Below, in pieces: positions 257 to 17,898 of a DNA stretch of 39,748 nucleotides. The DNA comes from Bacteroidota bacterium. Its GTDB lineage: Bacteria > Bacteroidota > Bacteroidia > B-17B0 > Aurantibacillaceae. Made by a program: the position numbers and the translations under genes. The notes below the pieces were generated by a model. The model worked only from the letters and a program-made list of their open reading frames with translations. It was not told where the DNA came from and made no database searches. How positions within the stretch are numbered: position 1 is the first letter of the stretch; every line of letters begins with the position of its first letter. The DNA is taken from the NCBI GenBank assembly GCA_013816615.1, contig JACDED010000024.1:1-39748 (forward strand), written 5' to 3'.

Positions 257-2650
257 TTAAATGGCATCTTTTTTTGTTAAAAATCTTTTCCATTTAGGTT
301 CTGGTTTTTCCTGACCATAACCATAACCCCCATAACCGTAACCATAGCCATAACCATAACCGTAACCGTAGCCTTTTTTGTAATCAGAACCATTGATAAG
401 CACCGCCATATTTGGAAGACGTTTTTCTTTATTCAAAGATTCGGCAATACGCAATAATCGTTTATCAAGATAATTTGCACGTGCAACAAACACAGTACAA
501 TCCGCATACATATTAATTAAAAGTGTATCTGCAACCAAACCAACCGGTGCAGTATCTACAATAATATAATCATAAATATTTTTTACAAGTTCAAACATTT
601 CTTTAATACGTGGGTGCATTAAAAGTTCGGCAGGATTTGGGGGGATTGGACCAGAAGGCAATATGTCAAAATTAGTAACATTCGGCGCATTAAATATCAC
701 TTCATTTAATTTTATATCCACATCTGTGATGTAATTAGTCAAACCTTTTTTATCGCCTAAACCAAGGTACGTTAATATCTTAGGGGCCCGCAGATCCGTC
801 CCAATTAATAAGGTTTTTTTACCGGAAAGCGCAAAACTTGCAGCAAGATTTAAAGCAATATAGGATTTCCCTTCCTTTCCGATAGTAGATGTAACAAATA
901 TTGTTTTACTTGCTTGTTTGTGATTGCTTATAATAAACTCAACATTTGTTCGCAAAAGTCTGAAAGCTTCTGCAATGTTAGATTTGTTGTTTGCAATAAC
1001 AACCAATCTTTCTTTAGAAGAGGATTGAGGAATATCTCCTAAAAAAGGAATATTTACTTTATCTGTATCTTTTTTTCCGTGTACTTTTGTATCTAATAAT
1101 TCCAAAATATAGAATATTATTATTGGGAAAATTAATCCTATTAAAAAGGTTGATAAGTAAATAATTTGCTTTTTCGGCGCTACCATTGCTCCATTGCTGT
1201 ATGCCTTATCAATTATTTTTGCGTTAGCAACAGTTACCGCCAAAGCAATATTTGTTTCTTCGCGTTTTTGTAAAAGATATAAATAAAGAGTTTCTTTAAT
1301 TTGTTGCTGACGTTGGATGGTACGGTATTCACGTTCATATTTTGGAACGGTTCCGATTTTTGAATTTATTTCATTTTCTTTTTTAGCAATCTCTGTAGCT
1401 TTGATCATTAAAGTATTTTGCAGATTGATCAAACTTTCTTTTATAGAACTTCGAATGCCGGTAATTTGATTGTCTAAATTTTCAACCATCGGATTTTTTT
1501 CGCCTGCATTCTTTAACATCCGATTGCGTTCTAAAACCAATTTATTATACTCATTAATCTGTGCCGAAAGTGGGGCGTCGCTTAAGCCCACGTTAGCCGG
1601 AATCAAATCATCCGGATTACTATGCTTTTTTATATAAGCATTCATAAATTCGGCAATTTTCACCTGCGTTGTAGCATCCAATTGATTCATTTCGCTTTGG
1701 CTGCCGGTTTGTAAAAACAGCTTAGCTTCAGATTCTACATCCGTTAATTTATATTTTACCTTAAAGTTTTCTGCTTCTCCTTCTACATCAGAAAGTTCGT
1801 TAGTAATATATTTGATCCTTTCATTAATAAAATCGGCCGTATTTTTACTCACCTGATTTTTGTCAGCAATAGCATCAAAATTGTGTTGCTTAATTAGATT
1901 ATCAACAACATCAGCACACTTATCTGGTAAAGGACCTTTTAAACTTATAGTAATTGCATTAGATGTTTTATTAACAGGATTTACTTTGATGGCAGCCAGG
2001 TACTCATCTACTACTGCATCCATTGGACTAATAACAACTCTAAAATTTCTGTTGAGATAACTGTCAGAATAAAAATTTGTGGTAGTAAAAATTATTTTTC
2101 CTGATTCGAGAGTTATAGCTTCACCAAAATTGTATTTACCTATTAATTCATTATTTAAGCCGTTTTTTAAGGTAAATGTTTTGTTTGATTCAGGTATTAC
2201 GACCCAATTTCCCTGGATCATACTTAGAGAATCTTTAATTATATAATTAATTATGATCGGTGTATCTGAATAACGTTCGTGTTCAATTGGCCTACCATAT
2301 GAGTAATAAGCAATATTTAATTTAAGCTCTTCAACAACCATCGTCATTAATGATCTTGATTTAAGGATCTCTATTTCGTTATCTATATTTTTGTTGTTCT
2401 TAAATAGTCCCAGATCTTCAAAGGCCGATAATTCAGATGAGATCTCACCGTTTTTATCATCCTGGATTAAAATAGTTGCATTTACTTCATACAACGGCGT
2501 TTGATATCGAAGATATACAAAACCTAAGATCAAACTAACAACGAGGCTTAATACAAACCATTTCCAATTATAAAGATATTTTATTAAAATATCCTTTAAA
2601 GAATGTTCCTGTACCTCTTCTACTGAAAAATTATATTGTTCTAATTCCAT
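257..2650 (-). CDS. wzc: Wzc-type polysaccharide co-polymerase and BY-family tyrosine kinase
   Basis: This 797-aa inner-membrane protein is expected to control polymer length and to work with the Wza-type export lipoprotein encoded just upstream. A short cytoplasmic N-terminus leads to a membrane helix near 30-48. A long periplasmic Wzz-like region with coiled-coil stretches follows (about 50-490), then a second helix (about 496-517). The cytoplasmic ATPase has a Walker A (TIGKEGKS, 589-596), a Walker A' (LLIGTDLRAP, 614-623) and a Walker B (YDYIIVDTAP, 693-702). The first Asp of the classic DxDxR Walker A' is Gly here, a variant I recall as common in Bacteroidota. The tail at 757-778 has ten tyrosines, nine in Tyr-Gly repeats, a fitting autophosphorylation cluster. 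Its ATG overlaps the wza stop by one base (TAATG). Confidence 0.95.
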   Translation of the reverse strand: MELEQYNFSVEEVQEHSLKDILIKYLYNWKWFVLSLVVSLILGFVYLRYQTPLYEVNATILIQDDKNGEISSELSAFEDLGLFKNNKNIDNEIEILKSRSLMTMVVEELKLNIAYYSYGRPIEHERYSDTPIIINYIIKDSLSMIQGNWVVIPESNKTFTLKNGLNNELIGKYNFGEAITLESGKIIFTTTNFYSDSYLNRNFRVVISPMDAVVDEYLAAIKVNPVNKTSNAITISLKGPLPDKCADVVDNLIKQHNFDAIADKNQVSKNTADFINERIKYITNELSDVEGEAENFKVKYKLTDVESEAKLFLQTGSQSEMNQLDATTQVKIAEFMNAYIKKHSNPDDLIPANVGLSDAPLSAQINEYNKLVLERNRMLKNAGEKNPMVENLDNQITGIRSSIKESLINLQNTLMIKATEIAKKENEINSKIGTVPKYEREYRTIQRQQQIKETLYLYLLQKREETNIALAVTVANAKIIDKAYSNGAMVAPKKQIIYLSTFLIGLIFPIIIFYILELLDTKVHGKKDTDKVNIPFLGDIPQSSSKERLVVIANNKSNIAEAFRLLRTNVEFIISNHKQASKTIFVTSTIGKEGKSYIALNLAASFALSGKKTLLIGTDLRAPKILTYLGLGDKKGLTNYITDVDIKLNEVIFNAPNVTNFDILPSGPIPPNPAELLMHPRIKEMFELVKNIYDYIIVDTAPVGLVADTLLINMYADCTVFVARANYLDKRLLRIAESLNKEKRLPNMAVLINGSDYKKGYGYGYGYGYGYGYGGYGYGQEKPEPKWKRFLTKKDAI
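314..372 (-). repeat. TAYGGN hexamer tandem repeat coding the Tyr-Gly tail of Wzc
   Basis: Minus-strand TAT/TAC codons alternate with GGN codons (the plus strand shows CCATAA / CCGTAA units) across the C-terminal tail of Wzc, residues about 761-778. Unit length is 6 bases, so gain or loss of a unit keeps the frame and changes the number of tyrosines by one. Confidence 0.8.
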
Positions 2651-3450
2651 TATTTTTGACTTGAAAATAGCACCGCCATTGTTACTAATAGTGAAATAAC
2701 GGATACTACAAGACTAATATTGGTGGTATTGACAACCGACGAATTGATCTTTGCGCGATTTGGCGAAACATATACAAGGTCGTTCTGGCTTAAATAATAA
2801 ACGGGCGATGAGAATAGTTCTTTAGAAGTTAGGTTAACCATAGTCTCGGTTCTTTTACCATCAATCTCACGAATAACAAGTACATTCTTTCTAACACCGG
2901 TAATTAAAAGATCTCCGGCAATGCCAAGGGCTTCAGGTAAAGTAATTCGCTCATTAGGAATTGTAAATGTTCCCGGATTACGAACTTCTCCTAAAACGGT
3001 GATCTTATAATTTAAGATCCTCAACAAAATTGTAGGGTTATTTAAATATGGCACTAATTTCTTTTTTAAGGAATCAATGGCTGCGCTTCTGCTTAAGCCC
3101 GCAAGTTTTATTTTACCTATTACCGGAAATTCAATATTCCCTTCACTATCTATCAAATATCCTGGGGGAGTTGGTGTTCCCTGGCTATAACCACCAACAT
3201 TCTGGCTAATATTAGCTAAGGGGATATTAAAAGGCTTTACTGCTTCCGCTTCAAGCCCCATAATGGTAATAGATAAAACATCATCTATTTTTAACACAGG
3301 ATTGTATGTTTTATTTGCATCGGATTGACTTAAATTACCCTGAAAATAAATTAGTTTTTTTTTGTCTGTACAAGATGTAATGAAAATACCACTAATTAGC
3401 ACTATTAAAAAAAATCTAAAATTGAATTTAAACATATTGAATACTGGCAT
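2650..3450 (-). CDS. wza: Wza-type polysaccharide export lipoprotein (Poly_export + SLBB)
   Basis: Outer-membrane export protein of a Wzx/Wzy system, 266 aa, partner of the neighbouring Wzc. The N-terminus is a lipoprotein signal with lipobox ITSC (Cys27). A poly-export domain follows (about 46-145, with KIDDVLSITI), then a SLBB-type domain (about 149-200, with VLGEVRNPGTFTIP). A hydrophobic segment near 244-262 ends the protein. In E. coli Wza the C-terminal helix crosses the outer membrane; whether this segment does the same is inference. At 266 aa it is shorter than enterobacterial Wza (about 380 aa), as is usual in Bacteroidota. An in-frame ATG at 3435 (Met6) also gives a good signal peptide and may be the true start. 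Its stop shares a base with the wzc start. Confidence 0.92.
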   Translation of the reverse strand: MPVFNMFKFNFRFFLIVLISGIFITSCTDKKKLIYFQGNLSQSDANKTYNPVLKIDDVLSITIMGLEAEAVKPFNIPLANISQNVGGYSQGTPTPPGYLIDSEGNIEFPVIGKIKLAGLSRSAAIDSLKKKLVPYLNNPTILLRILNYKITVLGEVRNPGTFTIPNERITLPEALGIAGDLLITGVRKNVLVIREIDGKRTETMVNLTSKELFSSPVYYLSQNDLVYVSPNRAKINSSVVNTTNISLVVSVISLLVTMAVLFSSQK

Positions 3451-3486: not shown

Positions 3487-4521
3487 TTATGCACTGCGCT
3501 TACGTCTGAAAATAATATTAAACAACCCTTTAAAAAAATACTTCACATCTGTAGTAAAGGGATTTTTTATCTTTTCTACCAGGTATTCTCGTTCAGCTTG
3601 AAGGACAGCCTCCACATTTCCTTTTCGATCTAATGATACATATGGTGGTATACAGCCTGGCTTTTGCTTTAGCCTCATTTCTTGTAGGTCTTTGGGTATA
3701 TCCTGAAAATAGCGTTCACTTATTGGTCTCACACCTACCAGTTTTAATTCACCTTTTAACACGTTAATTATCTGAGGTAATTCATCCAGCCAATAACGGC
3801 GCAAAAAACGACCCCAGGGTGTTAGACGAAAATCATTTTTTGGTTTTCCACTTTCGGCGTAACCATTTTGTTTTAATACATAGTCCTGTAAATACTCCGC
3901 ATACGGGTGCATTGTACGGAATTTATATACGCCAATTATCTTGCCGTTTTTACCCATTCGTGGCATTTTAAAAATAGGGCCATAACTTACATTCATATTA
4001 AAGGCGGGCGATTTTATTTTTTTGCAAACAACATAAGTTAAACCTTTGTGCGCCTCAACCTCTTTTATTTCAAAGCCGCAACTTACCAAACGACCCAGTC
4101 CTTCTGCCTTTGAAAGCAGACGATTGCGCCCACGTGTTAATAAAAAATAAATTTTTTTAAAGCCTTTTAATTTTGGAAACACTCTTAACAAAATAAATTC
4201 AAATACAAAATATATATTTTTAATTACAGGAATGTTTCCAATCCGGTGTCTTTCCTTGCGTGCTTTTATTGTTTCAAAACAGCATATAAATGTATCGCCA
4301 TTTTGTATCTTACTATTAACTTTTTCGAAAAATTTATTGATGTAACGAATGTTATTGATCTTACTTAAATTAATAATGCAATTAAAATCGTTAGGGTTAT
4401 TAATGATATTAAATTCATTTGTTGTAGACACAACAAGTGTTTCTTTTGACTCAACATCTGCATGTTTGCTAAAAAAATCATACGTTTCTTCGCCAGCTTT
4501 TTCAACAATTACTTGCTTCAT
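3487..4521 (-). CDS. Phosphoglycosyl transferase (bacterial sugar transferase) with atypical N-terminal domain
   Basis: The C-terminal part (about 175-344) is a bacterial sugar transferase domain of the PglC/WbaP superfamily, which loads the first sugar phosphate onto undecaprenyl phosphate. Visible motifs are YKFRTMHPYAE (199-209), the catalytic Asp246-Glu247 in WLDELPQIINVLKGE, LVGVRP (261-266) and KPGCIPPYVSLD (287-298). The last differs from the common KPGITGWAQV. The N-terminal half is not the multi-helix domain of WbaP. It has an alpha/beta look, a hydrophobic stretch near 97-128, and ends in GLGRLVSCGFEIKEVE. This end resembles the tail of a Rossmann-fold methyltransferase-like domain; that comparison is inference. 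Its substrate is unknown; UDP-linked sugars made by this operon are candidates. Confidence 0.88.
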   Translation of the reverse strand: MKQVIVEKAGEETYDFFSKHADVESKETLVVSTTNEFNIINNPNDFNCIINLSKINNIRYINKFFEKVNSKIQNGDTFICCFETIKARKERHRIGNIPVIKNIYFVFEFILLRVFPKLKGFKKIYFLLTRGRNRLLSKAEGLGRLVSCGFEIKEVEAHKGLTYVVCKKIKSPAFNMNVSYGPIFKMPRMGKNGKIIGVYKFRTMHPYAEYLQDYVLKQNGYAESGKPKNDFRLTPWGRFLRRYWLDELPQIINVLKGELKLVGVRPISERYFQDIPKDLQEMRLKQKPGCIPPYVSLDRKGNVEAVLQAEREYLVEKIKNPFTTDVKYFFKGLFNIIFRRKRSA

Positions 4522-4573: not shown

Positions 4574-6571
4574 TTAATTTTTTTCAGAATACAGCTTTGG
4601 TATTTTATTTATAGTCTCAATAACCTCTTTAAAATCGAGATTTAATATTTCGATATACCACCTTAGTGTCTCGTAACGCACTTGATTTTCGGCCTGAACT
4701 TTTTGCAAAGCTTCCTGCCTGGTAATCATACCTTCTCTAATTTGATTGCTCCTAAAAGTATCATTTTCTGTAAATCCTGCTACTGTGTAATAAATATAAT
4801 TATAAAAACTAACCGTACCATCTCCAATTCGCCAGGTAGAATCTGTGTCAATTGCTTTTTCCCAATTATATTCTTTTATTACTGATTCAATTTCGGTTTC
4901 ACTCCATTTATAATAATCAAATAAATGAAAATAATCTTTTTTAGATGAAAGATACCTTACTGCAAAAGAGCCAAGGCTATCAATCAAAGATTGGTTTAAA
5001 TAGCCCGGGCTTTTAATAAGATTTTTACCTACAAAACCAAAGAGCTTTAACTGGTTGAGACGGCTAAGTGAATAAATTGTTTTTTTATCAAATTGAGGTG
5101 GCAAACCTGCAAAACCTGTTTTAAAATTGGTATTTTCCAGATTATTAATTCCCCATAAATTTAAATCAATACCGGTTTGTTTTTTTACTTCATTGCAGTA
5201 ATAAAAAAAGTATTTATCACCAGCCATAAATAAAGGGATCATACCTAATTCAGGTGCTTTAAGCCATGCAATTATATTTTTTTTTATGTTTTCACGTTTC
5301 CATTTAATATCTGCAGAAACAATAATGTTCTCAACTCCAAGTTTACCACAAACACGTGCAATATTTCTCCTGGCAAGATCAGTAACCATACCCCAATCAT
5401 AAGTAAATGCAATTGGGTTTAATCCTAGTTCTTTTTTTGCTACATGAAGTGTAAAAGTGCTATCTCTTCCGCCACTAAAAGGAATAATACAATCGGGTGT
5501 GCCATTTTTATTTTTATAAGGCTCAACCAGTTTTTTTAAATTATCAAAAGTTTGAATTTGTTTTTGATTTTTATGATTTTTACAAAAATTACACTCACCC
5601 GTATCATCAAATTCTATAAACGGAAAAGTTTCAGGTAAAACACATCTATTACAACGTTTTAAATTATTAATAACAAGATCATTATTTTCGAGAAGGTTGT
5701 AAAGATGTTCTTCTTTGTTTTTATTAATAAATATCATCGGGTCAATAACAATTTCCTTATCGAAATTTCCCTTTAAACAAGTGCTTATTATTTTATATGT
5801 TTTATGTGAATTGGCATTTTCTTCATAGGCTGTTAAATTATTTTTAAAAGTAATAGTATTTAAAACAAAAATCTCTAAAGGTTTAAGATGTTTTATTATC
5901 ACTTGCTTTGATTCTTTCTTAAAGATCTGTTTCAAAAAATACTCTTCAGAAGCAAATATCAAAAAATCATCTTCTAAAACATAGTATAATGAGCCATTAT
6001 TAGTAAAAAGAGCCAACTCATTTCTGTAATCAAATAATATGGCGCAAGAGGCAGTACCTTCAATTTGATCTAATGAATTAGTGATAGCTGATAATAAATT
6101 TTCTTTTTTAGTTTGTTTTACAATAAGACTTAAAAGAACTTCAGTATCAATATCATACTCTTTTATAAGGTCGGGGTTTGCTTTCCATAGTTCTTCGTGA
6201 TTAACAATTATCCCATTATGAATACCAATTATTCCATCTTTTATTACAGGCTGGTTGTTAATTTCCTTAAGCTGCGATCCATTAGTTACTAATCTTGCAT
6301 GCCCTATTGCCTGAAAAGGCTGTCCGTTTTTATAAAGCTCAATAGCTTCGTTAATACTATTTTTATATTCTTTGCTTTTAAACAAAGTTGTAACAGGTAC
6401 ATCGCCTTTAATTAATTTAAGTTCTTCTGTTATGGTATTTTTAAAAATAATTCCCGACGAATCCTGTCCTCTAACAATCGAAGCCAGAGCAATATCTTTT
6501 AAACGCTTTTCAATAAAAGCCGGTGGGTAATTTGTTTTCTCCTTAATAATTATGCCAAAAATCCCACACAT
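4574..6571 (-). CDS. Fusion: GlmS-like class II glutaminase + WbpG-type N-acetyl sugar amidotransferase
   Basis: 665 aa. Residues 1 to about 220 form an Ntn-type glutaminase: nucleophile Cys2 (MCGIFGI), RGQDSSGI (34-41), GHARLVTNG (90-98, with Arg93), HNG (118-120, oxyanion hole) and Asp142 in DTEV. Compared with GlmS GHTRWATHG, the Trp and His are Leu94 and Asn97. Residues about 300-665 match the WbpG/PseA amidotransferase family: a zinc-ribbon-like Cys set (C307, C310, C327, C330) and a PP-loop SGGRDS (366-371). Family members amidate or amidinate sugars using ammonia, and WbpG normally receives it from HisH/HisF-like partners. Here the glutaminase is built in, so the protein should make its own ammonia from glutamine (inference). 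The ATG shares a base with the wecG stop (TAATG). The sugar substrate is not known. Confidence 0.85.
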   Translation of the reverse strand: MCGIFGIIIKEKTNYPPAFIEKRLKDIALASIVRGQDSSGIIFKNTITEELKLIKGDVPVTTLFKSKEYKNSINEAIELYKNGQPFQAIGHARLVTNGSQLKEINNQPVIKDGIIGIHNGIIVNHEELWKANPDLIKEYDIDTEVLLSLIVKQTKKENLLSAITNSLDQIEGTASCAILFDYRNELALFTNNGSLYYVLEDDFLIFASEEYFLKQIFKKESKQVIIKHLKPLEIFVLNTITFKNNLTAYEENANSHKTYKIISTCLKGNFDKEIVIDPMIFINKNKEEHLYNLLENNDLVINNLKRCNRCVLPETFPFIEFDDTGECNFCKNHKNQKQIQTFDNLKKLVEPYKNKNGTPDCIIPFSGGRDSTFTLHVAKKELGLNPIAFTYDWGMVTDLARRNIARVCGKLGVENIIVSADIKWKRENIKKNIIAWLKAPELGMIPLFMAGDKYFFYYCNEVKKQTGIDLNLWGINNLENTNFKTGFAGLPPQFDKKTIYSLSRLNQLKLFGFVGKNLIKSPGYLNQSLIDSLGSFAVRYLSSKKDYFHLFDYYKWSETEIESVIKEYNWEKAIDTDSTWRIGDGTVSFYNYIYYTVAGFTENDTFRSNQIREGMITRQEALQKVQAENQVRYETLRWYIEILNLDFKEVIETINKIPKLYSEKN

Positions 6572-7362
6572 TATTTATTAATATATTTTAAAATAATATT
6601 AAAATCTTTTTTTCTTAGTAACACCCTGTTAAAAAAGGTAATTGGTAATATTTTGAAAAAAATATCCAAAACCATTTTTGTGTGTGGAAGAAAAAGTCGT
6701 TTTGGCTCCTGCATTATTCTATACGGAGTTGCAAGACCAAGTTTTTTTATCCATGCAGGACTCTGTTTTGTATACCCTGAATAAACATCAATCATTCCAC
6801 CACAAGGTATAATAATATTTGAGTTTAACTTGGCTTTATGCTTGTAAACAAAATTTTCTTTTATTGGTGTTGAAATACCAATTAAAAGAATATGTGGCTT
6901 TTGATCTTGTATCTGCTTTACTATATCCAATTCGTTATTGTGATCATAATACCCATTTATACCTTGAAGCATTTTAATATTTGGATACTTTTTTTGCAGG
7001 TTTTCTGTTGCTTTTTTATTTATTTCTTCTTTAGCGCCAAATAACAGTACTTTTAAATGGTTATTATTTGCATACTCGAGGGTAAAATTTGCAATGTTTG
7101 GTATTGATATTACAGTTTTCAATTTAAACCCATTTATTAAACAATACCAGTTAAACTGAGTTCCATCGCAAACCATCAGATCAAACGAATTTATTATCGG
7201 ATATAGATCGGGATATTTTTTAAAAAGTGTGATATACCCTAATGAGTGTCCAAAAAGAACAATACTTTTGTGTTGTTCAATTGTTGAAGAGAACAAATGC
7301 TCTACCTCAGGTAAACTGAAGTTGCTTACTTTTAAACCATATACATTAATCTGTTCGATCAT
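6571..7362 (-). CDS. wecG: WecG/TagA/CpsF-family glycosyltransferase (GT26)
   Basis: 263 aa, the usual size for this family, which adds a HexNAc-type sugar to a lipid-linked intermediate at the inner face of the membrane. Visible features are CDGTQF (65-70) with the likely catalytic Asp66, the LLFGAKEEINKKA segment, IGISTPIKENF (the family's GxPxQE region), and the C-terminal GGMIDVYSGY...SPAWIKKLGL..PYRIMQEPKR, where the family contacts membrane and acceptor. It sits between the epimerase and the amidotransferase fusion and is coupled to both by TAATG junctions. Adding a sugar product of the upstream wecB/cap genes is possible but unproven. Confidence 0.9.
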   Translation of the reverse strand: MIEQINVYGLKVSNFSLPEVEHLFSSTIEQHKSIVLFGHSLGYITLFKKYPDLYPIINSFDLMVCDGTQFNWYCLINGFKLKTVISIPNIANFTLEYANNNHLKVLLFGAKEEINKKATENLQKKYPNIKMLQGINGYYDHNNELDIVKQIQDQKPHILLIGISTPIKENFVYKHKAKLNSNIIIPCGGMIDVYSGYTKQSPAWIKKLGLATPYRIMQEPKRLFLPHTKMVLDIFFKILPITFFNRVLLRKKDFNIILKYINK

Positions 7363-8495
7363 TATTTAATTCCGTGCCAGAGATTACTTAACCCGGCATT
7401 ACCCATTAATAATTTTAAAACTCTCCAGGAAGTATTTTCAATTGTATAGTCTTCTGCAATTTTTTTATACTTCTTATTATTTTCAAATTCACTAACAACA
7501 AGATTAACCGAATCCATTACCGTTTGCGGATCGAAACCCGATAATATAATAGTACCTGCATCTTGCGCTTCCGGTCTTTCCATAGATTGACGTAAAGAAA
7601 TAGCCGGAAAATTTAATATAGAAGACTCTTCGCTTATTGTACCTGAGTCTGAAAGCGTACATAAAGCATTCATTTGAAGGTATACATAATCTAAAAACCC
7701 AAATGGCTTCATGAAATTTACCAATGGGTTCATTTTAATATCCGTTATCTCTTCTAAACGTTTTCTTGTTCTTGGATGAGTAGAAACTACCACCGGGATC
7801 TTATAATTATCTGCCAGTTGATTTAAAACCGTCATTATCTTTCTTAAATTTTGGGGGTTATCCACATTCTCTTCGCGGTGGGTTGAAATAATAAAATATT
7901 TTTTTTCTTTTAAGTTTAGAGTTTCAAGTGCTTTGGATTTATTTATTTTTGGCAAGTAATAACTCAAAACTTCTTTCATTGGGCTTCCTGTAAGATAAAT
8001 TCTTCTGTGTGGTATGCCTTCAGCTAATAAATGTCTTCTTGCATGCTCTGTATAAACAAGGTTAAAATCTGAAATATGATCCACCACACGGCGATTGGTT
8101 TCTTCAGGAACATTAAAATCAAAACAACGGTTGCCGGCTTCCATATGAAAAATAGGAATATGCAAACGTTTAGCAATATATGCTGCGAGGCAGGAATTAG
8201 TGTCTCCTAATACTAAAAAAGCATCCGGCTTCTCGATTTTCAGGATCTCCTCGGTCTTACGCATAATGTCTCCTATTGATGCGCCTAACGAAGAAGTATC
8301 CACATTCATAAAATGGTCCGGTTTTCTGATCTCCAATTCATCAAAAAAAACCTGGTTTAACTCATAGTCATAATTTTGTCCTGTATGAACAATTACGTGG
8401 TTAACATGCTGGTCTAACAAACCCATTACACGCGATAAACGTATTATTTCAGGGCGTGTTCCAACAACGGTTAAAACTTTTAATTTTGCTTTCAT
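7362..8495 (-). CDS. wecB: UDP-HexNAc 2-epimerase, non-hydrolysing (WecB/CapG type)
   Basis: 377 aa, normal family length. Conserved blocks are GTRPEIIRLS (12-21), HTGQNYD (37-43), GDTNSC (97-102), HMEAGNR (117-123), PEETNRR (130-136), THREENV (205-211) and SDSGTISEESS (282-292), all typical of the GT-B-fold C2 epimerases. Its position straight after capF and near capE suggests it is the CapG-type enzyme. That enzyme inverts C2 in the last step to UDP-L-FucNAc, by analogy with Staphylococcus aureus CapE-CapF-CapG. A role as UDP-GlcNAc to UDP-ManNAc epimerase feeding the adjacent WecG-like transferase is the main alternative. Confidence 0.92.
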   Translation of the reverse strand: MKAKLKVLTVVGTRPEIIRLSRVMGLLDQHVNHVIVHTGQNYDYELNQVFFDELEIRKPDHFMNVDTSSLGASIGDIMRKTEEILKIEKPDAFLVLGDTNSCLAAYIAKRLHIPIFHMEAGNRCFDFNVPEETNRRVVDHISDFNLVYTEHARRHLLAEGIPHRRIYLTGSPMKEVLSYYLPKINKSKALETLNLKEKKYFIISTHREENVDNPQNLRKIMTVLNQLADNYKIPVVVSTHPRTRKRLEEITDIKMNPLVNFMKPFGFLDYVYLQMNALCTLSDSGTISEESSILNFPAISLRQSMERPEAQDAGTIILSGFDPQTVMDSVNLVVSEFENNKKYKKIAEDYTIENTSWRVLKLLMGNAGLSNLWHGIK

Positions 8496-8510: not shown

Positions 8511-9632
8511 TTAAACTGTTACAAAAAAAGTGTCAGGATCGTTCTGATCATAAAATTCGTTGATCCAGAAGATCGTATATAACTCTTCGTCTCCTGTGTT
8601 TTTTATATTATGCGTATACCAAACCGGCATATCTACAAATGAAGGACTATTACCATCCAATTCAAAAGATAAAACCTCATCAGTTCCTATTTTTCTTAAT
8701 TCAATTAAAGCTTTTCCTTTTATAACGGCAAAACGCTCTGCCTTACGCGTATGAAAATGATTTCCACGCGTAATACCGGGAACCGTTGTTGAAAAAGAAA
8801 CTTGCCCACCACTATTTAATTTTACAGTTTCAACAAATGAGCCTCTTGGGTCGGTATTTTTAGTAAGATGAAACGGAAAAAAAGTTTTATGATCAATATA
8901 ACATAAAAATGTAATAAATAAATTTCTATCAAAAGGCGAATCGAGATCTGGAAAAACACCTTTTTCAAAATAATTACTCTTAAGCTCATTAAGCTTTTGA
9001 AGCAAGGTTGAAACTTTTATTATTGATGTATGTGCTATGATTTTTTGACTAACGGTTGCATCTGAATCATTTATGGCATTAATAAATTCTTTTACCAATT
9101 CTGCAACGTAAATTAGTTTTATTTCACCATCTACTTCTATTTTTGGTGTTTCGTTATGAGTTAATTGATGGCAAAAAGTGGCAACAACTGAGTTGTAATA
9201 CGGATGCCCGAATGGCCCAAAAACATTTGGTATTATAAGGCCGGTGAATTTGGCCTTATTTTGGGAAGCCCATTTTTCAAAAAGCAAGCGGCCTTCTTTC
9301 TTTGATTTTCCATAAGGATTATCTCTTTCTTCCTGCGAAGAAGATGAGAAGAGAACATGAGGTGATGAGTTTGTTTTTTCTAATGCCGAAATTAATTTTT
9401 TTACCAGTTCAATATTTGTGTCATAAATTACTTTAGGATCGTTATGCCTGTTCATTGCCGCTAAATGAATTATTACATCACAGTCTGAAACGAATATTTT
9501 TAACTGTTCTTCATCTTCAAAAATTTCTTTTTTAAAAGGCACGCACTGAAACTGCTCTGTTAATAAACCAAATGTATTATAAAGATGGTATCCTATAAAT
9601 CCTTTTTGTCCTGTTATTCCAATTCTTATCAT
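8511..9632 (-). CDS. capF: CapF-type bifunctional SDR reductase with C-terminal cupin
   Basis: 373 aa, matching CapF. The N-terminal short-chain dehydrogenase has the glycine motif GQKGFIG (8-14) and Tyr107xxxLys111 (YGKSK). The C-terminal cupin (about 255-373) carries GNHFHTRKAERF (290-301), whose His292, His294 and Glu299 are the expected metal ligands. In S. aureus CapF the cupin epimerises C3 of the CapE product and the SDR part reduces C4 with NADPH, giving UDP-6-deoxy-L-talNAc, the precursor of UDP-L-FucNAc. It lies between wecB (15 bp away) and a small cupin gene (6 bp away). Confidence 0.92.
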   Translation of the reverse strand: MIRIGITGQKGFIGYHLYNTFGLLTEQFQCVPFKKEIFEDEEQLKIFVSDCDVIIHLAAMNRHNDPKVIYDTNIELVKKLISALEKTNSSPHVLFSSSSQEERDNPYGKSKKEGRLLFEKWASQNKAKFTGLIIPNVFGPFGHPYYNSVVATFCHQLTHNETPKIEVDGEIKLIYVAELVKEFINAINDSDATVSQKIIAHTSIIKVSTLLQKLNELKSNYFEKGVFPDLDSPFDRNLFITFLCYIDHKTFFPFHLTKNTDPRGSFVETVKLNSGGQVSFSTTVPGITRGNHFHTRKAERFAVIKGKALIELRKIGTDEVLSFELDGNSPSFVDMPVWYTHNIKNTGDEELYTIFWINEFYDQNDPDTFFVTV

Positions 9633-10069: not shown

Positions 10070-11083
10070 TTATTTACCTATATCGCTACGAATCATTTCA
10101 AGCTTCATTAAAAGGATTTTAGTACCTTCTATATCCAAACGTTTTGTATTGTGCGAATGGTATTCTTCTATTTTAGATATATCTTTTAGTCCTTCAGAAA
10201 AATAACTTTCGTAATTAAGGTCGCGATTATCTGCTGGAATACGATAATAATTCCCCATGTCTTCAGCCTTCACCATATCTTCGCGATTAACAAGGGTTTC
10301 ATACAATTTTTCACCATGTCTTGTTCCGATCACTTTTATTTCATTATTGGCTTTATATAATTCAAGCAAGGCCTTTGCTAATGTTTCAATAGTAGCAGCA
10401 GGTGCTTTTTGTACAAATATATCTCCGGGTTTTCCATGTTCAAATGCATATAATACAAGGTCTACGGCGTCTTCGAGGGTCATCATAAACCTTGTCATGC
10501 CAGGATCGGTAATTGTTAAGGGCTTTCCTGCTTTTATCTGATCAACAAAAAGAGGAATAACCGAGCCTCTTGAAGCCATTACATTTCCATAACGTGTACC
10601 GCAAAAAACAGTTTTTGCAGCGTCAAGATTGCGTGATTTTGCTACCATTACTTTTTCCATTAAAGCTTTTGACATTCCCATAGCATTAATGGGATACGCA
10701 GCCTTATCAGTACTTAATACTACTACATTTTTAACATTATATTTTTCTGCGGCGTTCAAAACATTTTCTGCGCCAATTATATTGGTCTTAACAGCTTCCA
10801 TCGGAAAAAATTCGCAAGACGGGACCTGTTTCAGAGCAGCCGCATGAAAAATATAATCAACTCCCTTAACTACATTATCAACTGCCTGAGCATCTCTTAC
10901 ATCACCAATATAAAATTTTACTTTATCATTATTTAAAATTTTACGCATATCGTCCTGCTTCTTTTCATCGCGACTATATATCCGAATTTCCTTAAATGCA
11001 TCTGTATCTAAAAATCGTTTTAGAACTGTGTAACCGAACGATCCTGTTCCCCCGGTTATTAAAAGAATTTTTCCTTTACTCAT
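10070..11083 (-). CDS. capE: CapE-type UDP-GlcNAc 4,6-dehydratase / 5-epimerase
   Basis: 337 aa SDR-superfamily protein. The cofactor motif GGTGSFG is at 11-17, and YSRDEKKQDDMR (36-47) is typical of the polysaccharide dehydratase branch. Catalytic residues are STDK (124-127) and Met135xxxLys139 in NAMGMSK. The Met in place of the usual SDR Tyr is characteristic of CapE-like enzymes. It takes UDP-GlcNAc to a UDP-4-keto-6-deoxy-hexosamine with inversion at C5, the first step to UDP-L-FucNAc. With the cupin, capF and wecB downstream it forms the standard set. Its start overlaps the end of the upstream glycosyltransferase gene by 8 bp. Confidence 0.92.
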   Translation of the reverse strand: MSKGKILLITGGTGSFGYTVLKRFLDTDAFKEIRIYSRDEKKQDDMRKILNNDKVKFYIGDVRDAQAVDNVVKGVDYIFHAAALKQVPSCEFFPMEAVKTNIIGAENVLNAAEKYNVKNVVVLSTDKAAYPINAMGMSKALMEKVMVAKSRNLDAAKTVFCGTRYGNVMASRGSVIPLFVDQIKAGKPLTITDPGMTRFMMTLEDAVDLVLYAFEHGKPGDIFVQKAPAATIETLAKALLELYKANNEIKVIGTRHGEKLYETLVNREDMVKAEDMGNYYRIPADNRDLNYESYFSEGLKDISKIEEYHSHNTKRLDIEGTKILLMKLEMIRSDIGK

Positions 11084-14482: not shown

Positions 14483-15634
14483 TTATAAATATATTTTCAT
14501 GAGTTGCAAACTATAATCGATCATATTACATTTTTCTACAGCCAGCTTGTATCCATTATTTCCCATACGTTCACGAAGCTCTTTATCTGCAATCAATTTT
14601 AAAATACGCCCTGCCAATTGCTCAGCATTACCAGGCTCAATTAAAAATCCATTGCTGTTTTCAACAATATAAAAGTCAGAGGTGCCGGTTGCTATTATTG
14701 GTTTTTTTAGCGCCATAGCTTCGATAATATCGCGACCCCAAGGATTACCCGAAAGATCGGGTCTTATATAAATATCCAGCTTATTAATTTCTTTTAGTGG
14801 TTCAAAAGTAAATGGTACAAGTTTAAGATTTGTAATACTGAATTTATTAATAAGTGTATCAACCTGCCTTTTATAGCTTTTACTAATAAACCATTTTATT
14901 AAACCTCTTAAAGAATTCTCTTTTTTAGGATAACCAATTATTCTAAATTCAACTGCTTTGTTTTCTGTTTTTGCATTTATAAGCTTAATAGCTTTTATAA
15001 ATACTAAATGACCTTTAATTGGGATAAAATTAGCGCACATGCCTATTCTAATGACCTTATGCTCTTCGTCTTCATTTATAAATGCGTCTGTAACAGAAAA
15101 ATCGTGAGGATTTGGCAGAACATATGTTTTTTCGACGCTTTTAAAAACCTTTAACTCATTGGGCGAAATAGCAATAATTTTATCCGCATATTTTAATGTG
15201 TTTTCTATAATATATGCATCTATTTTATTCTCCATTCCATATGGAAGCATTTCTCTTACATGTACAACAATTTTGCATTTCGTTTTTTCTTTTATCGCTT
15301 TTAAGATATGTGAAAAAACACTTGAGTTTATATGTAAAATATCAATTTTATTTTCCTTTATAAAATCAATGATCTCATGCGGGTAATAGCCTTTATTTTT
15401 CTCGAATTGATTTAAAGATATTGTACCTTCTGAATAACTATAGATCATTGGAATATCAATTTCTTTGATCTCTTTTGAGTAAATAAATTCTTTAGATAGG
15501 ACCTTATTTATTCTTTTGTTTCTTTTAATGATAGTATATATTTCGGCGCGGGGATACAAAGCCTGTTGCATAATAAACATGCTTTTAGTAGCTCCGCCAT
15601 AACCCAAACCATGTTGTAAAAAGAGCACCCTCAT
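14483..15634 (-). CDS. Glycosyltransferase, GT4 family
   Basis: 383 aa GT-B transferase. The N-terminal loop HGLGYGGATKSMFIM is typical of GT4 enzymes. Other features are VHVREMLPYGMENK and a basic membrane-facing patch around LRGLIKWFISKSYKR. The C-terminal donor site reads RPDLSGNPWGRDIIEAMALKKPIIAT, where the first Glu of EX7E is replaced within the NPWGRDIIE variant. It follows wzx and the stand-alone amidotransferase in the operon and overlaps the latter by four bases (ATGA). Sugar specificity cannot be read. Confidence 0.88.
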   Translation of the reverse strand: MRVLFLQHGLGYGGATKSMFIMQQALYPRAEIYTIIKRNKRINKVLSKEFIYSKEIKEIDIPMIYSYSEGTISLNQFEKNKGYYPHEIIDFIKENKIDILHINSSVFSHILKAIKEKTKCKIVVHVREMLPYGMENKIDAYIIENTLKYADKIIAISPNELKVFKSVEKTYVLPNPHDFSVTDAFINEDEEHKVIRIGMCANFIPIKGHLVFIKAIKLINAKTENKAVEFRIIGYPKKENSLRGLIKWFISKSYKRQVDTLINKFSITNLKLVPFTFEPLKEINKLDIYIRPDLSGNPWGRDIIEAMALKKPIIATGTSDFYIVENSNGFLIEPGNAEQLAGRILKLIADKELRERMGNNGYKLAVEKCNMIDYSLQLMKIYL

Positions 15635-16767
15635 TTAAAAATAGCTCTATACAGCTTTCCTATTTTAAATTTTCTTTTGGCAAAAGATCTATAATCCCAG
15701 TGCAGTCTTGGCTTGGTATCCATTATCGTTTGAAACTCACCTTCTGAAATATTTAGCTTCTTTAAAAAGTAACTTAAATTGTTTTTGTAGTCTTGTTGCG
15801 AAAGTAATTCCTTCTGCATTTCTTCCAGACCCTCGTCTCTGGTCATTTGCCCTGAACAGATCAAACTGGAATAATGCGCCCGGCGTTTATCAATTTTAAA
15901 TTTTTGCGGTAAGATAACATCCTGGTAAAATTTAGTAAATATGGATTCATCATGTTTATTACCATAGTTTCTCCAGTTCAATTGAGTTTCTATTATTTTT
16001 AACGCTTCTTTTTTATTGTAATCCAGGTAATTTAAAATAGGAATCAATGCCATACTATTTTTACCAAATGTGAGGTACTGATAAAAATTTAGAAGCTTAA
16101 ATGTTTTTAGTTTTAACCCGCCATCACCTTCTTTTTTATAAATATCCTTAATGTTAAGACTATCCATTTTGTATGGATACAACCATTTGGCCGGCATAAC
16201 TGATTCGGACTGGTAATTGTATCCCGATAAGAAATATTTAATATTGTACTTTTTACTAACTTCATATAAAGCAACACCTATAGCGTGATCTGTAAGCATT
16301 TCTATATCGATAACTGACGCCCGCAGAAAAGCTTTTTGAAGTGCTTTAAATTCTTCCCAATTTAAAACATGAGTATAAAGGTCAATATTTAAACTATTGA
16401 CAATGTTTTTTATATTTTCAACTGCCAGCTCCGAATTCCAGCCATTATCCAAGTGTACAGCTAAAGGCCTTAATCCAAATTGTTTAACTGCGACGTATGC
16501 TAAGTAAGAGCTATCAACACCACCACTTAATCCTATCAAACAATCATATTTATTATTTACGCCATCTTGTTTAATGTTATTGATCAATTTATCAAGATTA
16601 TGTTTTTTAATAATTGGGTCAATAAAAATTTCTTTGTTTAATCTAATAATTGAATTTGTGCAATGATTACAAGATCCATTAGCATCGAATACAATGTCAG
16701 GGTCGCTTGTATCCATAATGCATTGTTTACAGATCTGATATTCTTTTGAGTTTTTTGTTTCGGTCAT
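15631..16767 (-). CDS. WbpG/PseA-type N-acetyl sugar amidotransferase, stand-alone
   Basis: 378 aa, the usual length of the family. The zinc-ribbon-like start has Cys13, Cys16, Cys33 and Cys36 (ICKQC...CNHC). The PP-loop is SGGVDSSY (81-88), and DNGW (107-110) follows the second nucleotide-binding strand. WbpG of Pseudomonas forms an amidine on a HexNAc uronic acid with ammonia from HisH2/HisF2, and PseA-type relatives modify nonulosonic acids. No glutaminase or HisF-like gene adjoins it here. Ammonia may come from the fused glutaminase enzyme encoded at 4574-6571, from HisH/HisF genes elsewhere, or from free ammonia. Which one applies is unknown. Confidence 0.9.
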   Translation of the reverse strand: MTETKNSKEYQICKQCIMDTSDPDIVFDANGSCNHCTNSIIRLNKEIFIDPIIKKHNLDKLINNIKQDGVNNKYDCLIGLSGGVDSSYLAYVAVKQFGLRPLAVHLDNGWNSELAVENIKNIVNSLNIDLYTHVLNWEEFKALQKAFLRASVIDIEMLTDHAIGVALYEVSKKYNIKYFLSGYNYQSESVMPAKWLYPYKMDSLNIKDIYKKEGDGGLKLKTFKLLNFYQYLTFGKNSMALIPILNYLDYNKKEALKIIETQLNWRNYGNKHDESIFTKFYQDVILPQKFKIDKRRAHYSSLICSGQMTRDEGLEEMQKELLSQQDYKNNLSYFLKKLNISEGEFQTIMDTKPRLHWDYRSFAKRKFKIGKLYRAIFK

Positions 16768-16782
16768 TTAAATTTACTTACT

Positions 16783-17898
16783 TCAATTTAGTATCTGAAG
16801 CACTTCGTTTAATCTTGATTTACTTGAAAAATTATTAATAGCTATAGGAATATTTACTTTAGAACTTTCTTTTTCAGATGTATAATTAGCAAGTATTTTA
16901 GCTAATGTTGAGGATAAATTATCAAAATCCACCTTATGGTAATAAAACTTAAAATCATCCCAATAAGAATAAGGTAGCCAATTAGCAACGATCATAATAT
17001 TGCCTGTAGCTAAGTATTCCACTAACGATCCTGAGGCCTGATCAGAAACCTGCATGTTAATTACTATATCTGAATTTGCCCGCATTTCTGCAACACCGAG
17101 TTCCGATAATTTTTCTTCATAAAAGATCGCATTAATATTTAATTGAGCTATTTTATTTTTTAAACTATTTAAATATTCTGCATTACCGGCGTAGGTAAAA
17201 GGAAATATAAATTCTAAATTATATTTTTTATCCATGCTAATTTTTGCAATTGTTTCAATTATTTTTATGTGTTGCTGGCTATCTGAACCATTATAACCAA
17301 TAGTGATTCTTATTGCTTTTGAAGGGATAGTTTTGATCTTTTCTTTATTCTGAATTAAACAATCAATAATATTCAAGCCAAAATGATTTACACTAAACTT
17401 TTGGGCATAATTTTTATAAAAATTTGTAAGATCCTTTGCCATACCCGGATTTGTAAAAACAATCTTGCTGCAAGCATCAAGCAAAAGTTTATTGCTCATA
17501 AGATCTTTATTTGATGCACGATAAAAATCAGAGCCCGCATAAATTATTACAATTTTTTTTGTTTTTGCTTTTAGCAGATCAATATATTTATTTAAAAAAC
17601 TACTGTGGTAAAAAACAATAATTGCATAATACTCATCTAATACTTGTAGTTGTTTTTTAAAATAATATGGAAATAAATAATTTTGAATTATTCTAAATAT
17701 CTTAAATACACCATTTCCTTTAATTTTATTGAAGTATTTTTTTTTATTTTGTTTTTTATAATTAAAAAACTCATGATCGTTGTAATCAAGCACATCAGTA
17801 TCATACCCATTATTGTTATAAATATCCGGTAGTTTATCTGAAAAAGGCCACATGCCTTTAAAATTAGTAACCAGTAAAATCTTTTTTTGAACGCTCAC
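16783..17898 (-). CDS. Probable glycosyltransferase, GT-B fold
   Basis: 371 aa. Features consistent with a GT-B enzyme are an N-terminal Rossmann-like start (KILLVTNFKGMWPFSD), a second-domain entry IRITIGYNGSDSQQHIKIIETI, and a late donor-site region SDIVINMQVSDQASGSLVEYLATG. The GYNGSDSQQH segment recalls GT56 (WecF-like) enzymes, which have a similar glycine-rich entry to domain two. This similarity is by eye only. The start codon is GTG at 17898. It sits 5 bp after wzx and 15 bp before the amidotransferase, so a role in building the repeat unit is the reasonable inference. Confidence 0.7.
   Translation of the reverse strand: MSVQKKILLVTNFKGMWPFSDKLPDIYNNNGYDTDVLDYNDHEFFNYKKQNKKKYFNKIKGNGVFKIFRIIQNYLFPYYFKKQLQVLDEYYAIIVFYHSSFLNKYIDLLKAKTKKIVIIYAGSDFYRASNKDLMSNKLLLDACSKIVFTNPGMAKDLTNFYKNYAQKFSVNHFGLNIIDCLIQNKEKIKTIPSKAIRITIGYNGSDSQQHIKIIETIAKISMDKKYNLEFIFPFTYAGNAEYLNSLKNKIAQLNINAIFYEEKLSELGVAEMRANSDIVINMQVSDQASGSLVEYLATGNIMIVANWLPYSYWDDFKFYYHKVDFDNLSSTLAKILANYTSEKESSKVNIPIAINNFSSKSRLNEVLQILN

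Follow-up and report, generated by a model that had tools for sequence, protein, structure and literature searches.

A 665-residue protein encoded by a Bacteroidota bacterium joins, in one chain, a class II glutaminase and a PP-loop synthetase domain of the NASAT (WbpG/WbuX) type, and represents a rare, real and unnamed protein family in which known domains are newly combined. NASAT enzymes are poorly understood and have been regarded as dependent on a HisF-like partner and a class I glutaminase. We propose, with a probability of about 0.6, that the fusion is a synthase of N-acetyl sugar amidines, self-contained and dependent on glutamine, that serves the making of a surface polysaccharide. 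The fuller form of this proposal, a single-chain sugar amidine synthase whose class II domain takes on the work of HisH and HisF and which occurs across phyla beside the WbuX-HisH2-HisF2 trio, acting on another sugar, we hold to be slightly better than an even bet. The gene lies in the window, the 39,748-nucleotide stretch of DNA analyzed here (contig JACDED010000024.1 of assembly GCA_013816615.1); its parts and neighbors are given in Table 1.

Table 1. The fusion gene, its domains and motifs, and neighboring genes, in window positions
Feature	Position	Strand	Details
Fusion gene, class II glutaminase and NASAT-like PP-loop synthetase	4574..6571	-	665 aa, begins MCGIFGI
Glutaminase domain	5876..6571	-	residues 1-232; alignment of 16 homologs, fold match to PurF/GlmS, Z ~23
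Variable linker	5675..5875	-	residues 233-299; 41-75 residues long among homologs
NASAT domain	4577..5674	-	residues 300-665; TIGR03573, 8WEX profile and fold matches
Tetracysteine motif C307-x2-C310...G325-x-C327-x2-C330	5582..5653	-	zinc site by homology to LpNASAT
PP-loop SGGRDS	5459..5476	-	residues 366-371
WecG/TagA-type glycosyltransferase	6571..7362	-	stop overlaps fusion start by one base (TAATG)
UDP-HexNAc 2-epimerase (WecB/FnlC-like)	7362..8495	-	Pfam/NCBIfam
FnlB/WbcJ-like reductase	8511..9632	-	NCBIfam
FnlA-like 4,6-dehydratase/5-epimerase	10070..11083	-	NCBIfam
Phosphoglycosyl transferase (Bac_transf)	3487..4521	-	next after fusion; Pfam; order kept in L006-L010
Wza-like export protein and Wzc-like tyrosine autokinase	257..3450	-	Pfam/NCBIfam
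Standalone WbuX-type NASAT	15631..16767	-	281 bits (above cut-off)

Domains and active sites of the fusion protein

The preliminary description of this sequence had placed a GlmS-like class II glutaminase ahead of a WbpG-type domain on one polypeptide, and both the domains and their union were borne out. The domain search that it had suggested gave Pfam matches to GATase_7 (4e-10) and GATase_6 (2e-9), both above gathering cut-offs, and to no other Pfam family; in NCBIfam, the WbuX model TIGR03573 matched residues 305-649 (8.7e-44, 150 bits), which is far beyond chance though below the curated cut-off of 203 bits. The first 220 residues, for which a lack of any class II profile match had been allowed, thus match two such families. 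It had also been considered that the protein might prove to be a long-known AsnB-type enzyme. The NCBIfam models of GlmS, PurF and AsnB, however, cover residues 1-217 only. We rejected an AsnB identity because TIGR01536 matches only residues 2-217 and no Asn_synthase Pfam match was obtained, and a GlmS identity because the protein lacks the SIS domain and the GlmS models stop at residue 217. The fusion is no assembly artefact, as the same two domains occur together at 15 other loci, with 131 invariant residues and every protein starting M-C. No enzyme with this layout is known to have been characterized, and our searches found the pairing neither among solved structures nor in the open-access literature.

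The motifs first read from the sequence, Cys2, RGQDSSGI (residues 34-41), HNG (118-120) and DTEV (142-145), followed by the CxxC pairs and SGGRDS, are all present, as is HARLVTNG (91-98). Residue 2 is Cys in all 16 aligned homologs, and Arg34, Gly35, Arg93, Leu94, Asn119, Gly120 and Asp142 are likewise invariant; the class II (Ntn) glutamine site, which comprises a Cys immediately behind Met together with the Arg, the Asn-Gly pair and the Asp, is complete. A profile of the 16 glutaminase domains matched GlmS best and PurF second. The full-length model (pTM 0.46), built from 8 sequences, was good over the glutaminase and poor over the rest of the chain, and its residues 2-247 gave the match to PurF and GlmS. 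Residues 1 to ~232 are therefore a class II (Ntn) glutaminase of the GlmS/PurF type with every catalytic residue in place. Leu94 and Asn97 had been called unusual, but the former is invariant and the latter occurs in 15 of the 16 aligned fusions. In AsnB a Leu follows the Arg, and in GltB an Asn follows the Thr. An altered glutaminase signalled by odd residues was rejected, since Leu94, Asn97 and SGGRDS are signatures of the clade.

The C-terminal domain contains CNRC (307-310), GECNFC (325-330) and SGGRDS, in agreement with the tetracysteine motif CxxC...[GN]xCxxC defined for NASAT and with the PP-loop SGGXDS as the authors of the LpNASAT study define it (PMC10607449). The four cysteines and SGGRDS are among the invariant residues of the 16 aligned fusions. 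The PP-loop had also been thought unusual, a view that did not hold, as SGGRDS is shared by all members of the clade and also occurs in two standalone NASATs. A sequence search with the fusion gave 8WEX (LpNASAT) as the best solved structure, and 8WEX was the sole match of a profile of the C-terminal domains (4.9e-18). Modeled alone, this domain reached pTM 0.78 and matched 8WEX over 312 residues (Z 22.6, rmsd 4.7), giving the LpNASAT fold across the whole domain. Residues 300-665 are thus a zinc-tetracysteine PP-loop domain of the NASAT (WbpG/WbuX) type. Since the domain lies far from WbuX, with a stem of ~2 changes per column and a score below the cut-off, its acceptor or chemistry may differ.

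Gene neighborhood and ammonia supply

The fusion gene comes after the WecG-type glycosyltransferase and FnlABC-like genes and before the phosphoglycosyl transferase, Wza and Wzc. The order FnlA-FnlB-FnlC-WecG-fusion-phosphoglycosyl transferase recurs at L006-L008, and at L009 and L010 the fusion is likewise accompanied by the phosphoglycosyl transferase, Wza and Wzc, but FnlABC is missing. Further genes of the cluster encode a LegC-type aminotransferase, a NeuD-type acetyltransferase, a nucleotidyltransferase, Wzx and Wzy. A 371-aa protein encoded between WbuX and Wzx (16783-17898) has no Pfam or NCBIfam match. No HisH or HisF gene occurs in the window; the standalone WbuX has neither in its cluster, as at L007 and L008, and L006 has both. 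This WbuX is probably served in trans. An anti-phage defence role was rejected, as no PADLOC match was obtained.

The genome as a whole carries two fusions, the second (C118:1408-3234) 44% identical to the first, together with two WbuX and one HisH2/HisF2 pair; the classic trio of WbuX with HisH2/HisF2 is located at C118, outside the window. The preliminary description saw a class II glutaminase that had replaced the class I partner. Its idea of a built-in ammonia source is supported, but simple replacement is not, because the genome keeps HisH2/HisF2 and two WbuX, the second in the same cluster as the fusion. The fusion has not displaced the older system, and the presence of both in one genome suggests that it likely modifies a second sugar. 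A HisH-HisF2-WbuX trio and a fusion share one cluster at L012, L048 and L063, where the two probably act on different sugars.

HisH counts across genomes bear on the source of ammonia. Nine of the 10 genomes with a fusion and a standalone WbuX above cut-off have at least two HisH, and the tenth (G397) has one, adjoining a WbuX. All five genomes with a fusion and no WbuX above cut-off have one HisH, none having two or more, and in three of them (G051, G242, G702) it lies within the his operon. The association of HisH count with standalone WbuX gave a Fisher p of 0.002 in a sample of 15 genomes that are partly related, were not planned as a set beforehand and include an incomplete one (G400). 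Surplus HisH thus tracks the standalone WbuX rather than the fusion, which supports the built-in ammonia source of the preliminary description and suggests that the ammonia used by the fusion probably comes from its own glutaminase. Judged by genome content, the fusion does not share the need of the WbuXYZ-type system for a HisH/HisF2 partner.

Distribution and origin of the family

No fewer than 18 other distinct full-length fusions were found; they come from Bacteroidota, Alpha- and Betaproteobacteria, a desulfovibrio and IMG/VR contigs. Carriers include Bacteroidia MAGs, a MAG labelled Chryseobacterium gleum, Mesopusillimonas, and plasmids of Solidesulfovibrio and Agrobacterium; the same fusion gene is present on two IMG/VR contigs. 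The plasmid copies are named 7-cyano-7-deazaguanine synthase, glucosamine 6-phosphate synthetase or hypothetical protein, and the names of the annotated copies mislead. TIGR03573 scores of all fusions fall between 106 and 163 bits, below the WbuX cut-off. Among 395 Bacteroidota genomes, their phylum inferred from named relatives, 61 have a TIGR03573-like gene (54 above cut-off) and five have an intact fusion, this genome not counted; two of 398 genomes from the phylum of Mesopusillimonas do, the seed genome not counted. The fusion is therefore rare, at ~1-2% of sampled Bacteroidota genomes. A search of phage records gave no match.

In a tree of NASAT domains, a single clade (support 100/99) unites all fusions with one standalone from IMG/VR. 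This clade on its long stem indicates that the fusion event most likely happened once, and the position of the standalone suggests a later loss of the glutaminase. The standalone gene (L077:5022-6134; IMG/VR 3300035698_007036, 119.5 kb, classed viral) sits among WecB-like, FnlA-like and SDR genes, with no convincing glutaminase remnant found nearby. Another putatively viral contig (IMG/VR 3300032032_000031) carries a complete fusion (L076:5001-6827), whose neighbors are a gene for a DMFA2_C protein and two open frames, of 671 and 538 aa, that match no PHROG or Pfam family. A gene in G035 (L052:9845-10729) encodes the C-terminal part alone, corresponding to residues 426-662 of the query at 65% identity; it has neither glutaminase nor PP-loop, and no convincing remnant was detected nearby. 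NASAT-like PP-loop regions also occur within a large NRPS gene on a Roseovarius pelagicus plasmid (L073:3415-11463) and within a 1347-aa open frame (G203:C77:9001-9954).

Proposed chemistry, alternatives and closest known systems

We infer the following course of catalysis. Once Met is removed, Cys2 would hydrolyse glutamine, and the ammonia set free would reach the NASAT domain without leaving the protein. In that domain, SGGRDS would be the site where ATP is cleaved to AMP and PPi, activating the acetamido oxygen of a HexNAc that is linked to a nucleotide or a lipid; ammonia would then take the place of this oxygen, yielding an N-acetimidoyl (acetamidino) sugar. The adjacent FnlABC-like genes make a UDP-L-FucNAc-type sugar our best guess for the substrate at this locus, with L-FucNAm as the product; in Aeromonas and E. 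coli O145, the route accepted for UDP-L-FucNAm combines FnlABC with WbuX (PMC6124807, PMC10607449). L-FucNAc was rejected as a universal substrate, as FnlABC is absent beside the close relatives L009 and L010 and others. In Tannerella, a 605-aa AsnB has been proposed for an acetamidino group (PMC6120980). Counting against a self-contained amidine synthase is the clade member without a glutaminase on the IMG/VR contig.

The best surviving alternative, which we consider unlikely, is that the fusion forms amides on a NASAT-derived scaffold, converting a carboxylate, that of a uronic acid for instance, to the carboxamide. Amide formation is typical of PP-loop enzymes that carry a class II glutaminase, AsnB being the established case, and AsnB-like WbpS-type proteins are thought to turn carboxylates into carboxamides; the divergence of the NASAT subfamily in the fusions would also fit. 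However, separate AsnB-like genes are present in some of the same clusters (L009, L010, L024 and C118 of this genome), none of the genes annotated in the window cluster was identified as a uronate-forming dehydrogenase, and the tetracysteine motif and full-domain LpNASAT match fit NASAT. It is improbable that the standalone WbuX is a further, or even the main, recipient of ammonia from the glutaminase of the fusion: such a role would suit the clusters of the window, L007 and L008, but this genome has its HisH2/HisF2 pair elsewhere, every WbuX genome examined has a HisH near a WbuX or surplus to the his operon, and four genomes (G051, G132, G242, G702) have a fusion without any WbuX. Formation of another nitrogen bond by the NASAT part, such as a nitrile as in QueC/ArtA, or amidation of a non-sugar lipid-linked intermediate, is a little less probable still. 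In its favor, the nitrile synthetase ArtA is the second structural match of the C-terminal model (Z 13.1) and one homolog is annotated 7-cyano-7-deazaguanine synthase, but LpNASAT scores nearly 10 Z units higher, QueC covers only ~60 residues around the PP-loop and the clusters encode sugar polymers.

If the fusion is indeed a sugar amidine synthase, it would be a second evolutionary answer to ammonia supply for NASAT chemistry, and its single chain would be the simplest starting point for proving in vitro that sugar amidines are formed and with what ATP chemistry. The misleading database names would be corrected, and amidinated sugars would become predictable from clusters without HisH/HisF.

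The fusion shares with WbpG, WbuX and LpNASAT the tetracysteine motif, SGGXDS PP-loop, whole-domain fold and polysaccharide cluster. Unlike them, it has its own class II glutaminase, forms a separate clade, scores below the family cut-off and, by genome content, needs no surplus HisH. With the glutaminase domains of GlmS and PurF it has in common the N-terminal Cys nucleophile, the Arg, Asn-Gly and Asp of the glutamine site and the fold, but the acceptor domain is another, and Leu94 and Asn97 stand where GlmS has Trp and His. AsnB and AsnB-like sugar amidases have the same overall plan, with a PP-loop synthetase behind a class II glutaminase; in the fusion, by contrast, the synthetase is a NASAT with zinc cysteines that does not match the AsnB synthetase domain. 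The WbuX-WbuY-WbuZ (WbpG-HisH2-HisF2) trio has the same proposed chemistry and pathway slot, but divides the work among three proteins, a class I glutaminase and a conduit resembling HisF among them, where the fusion is one protein with a class II glutaminase.
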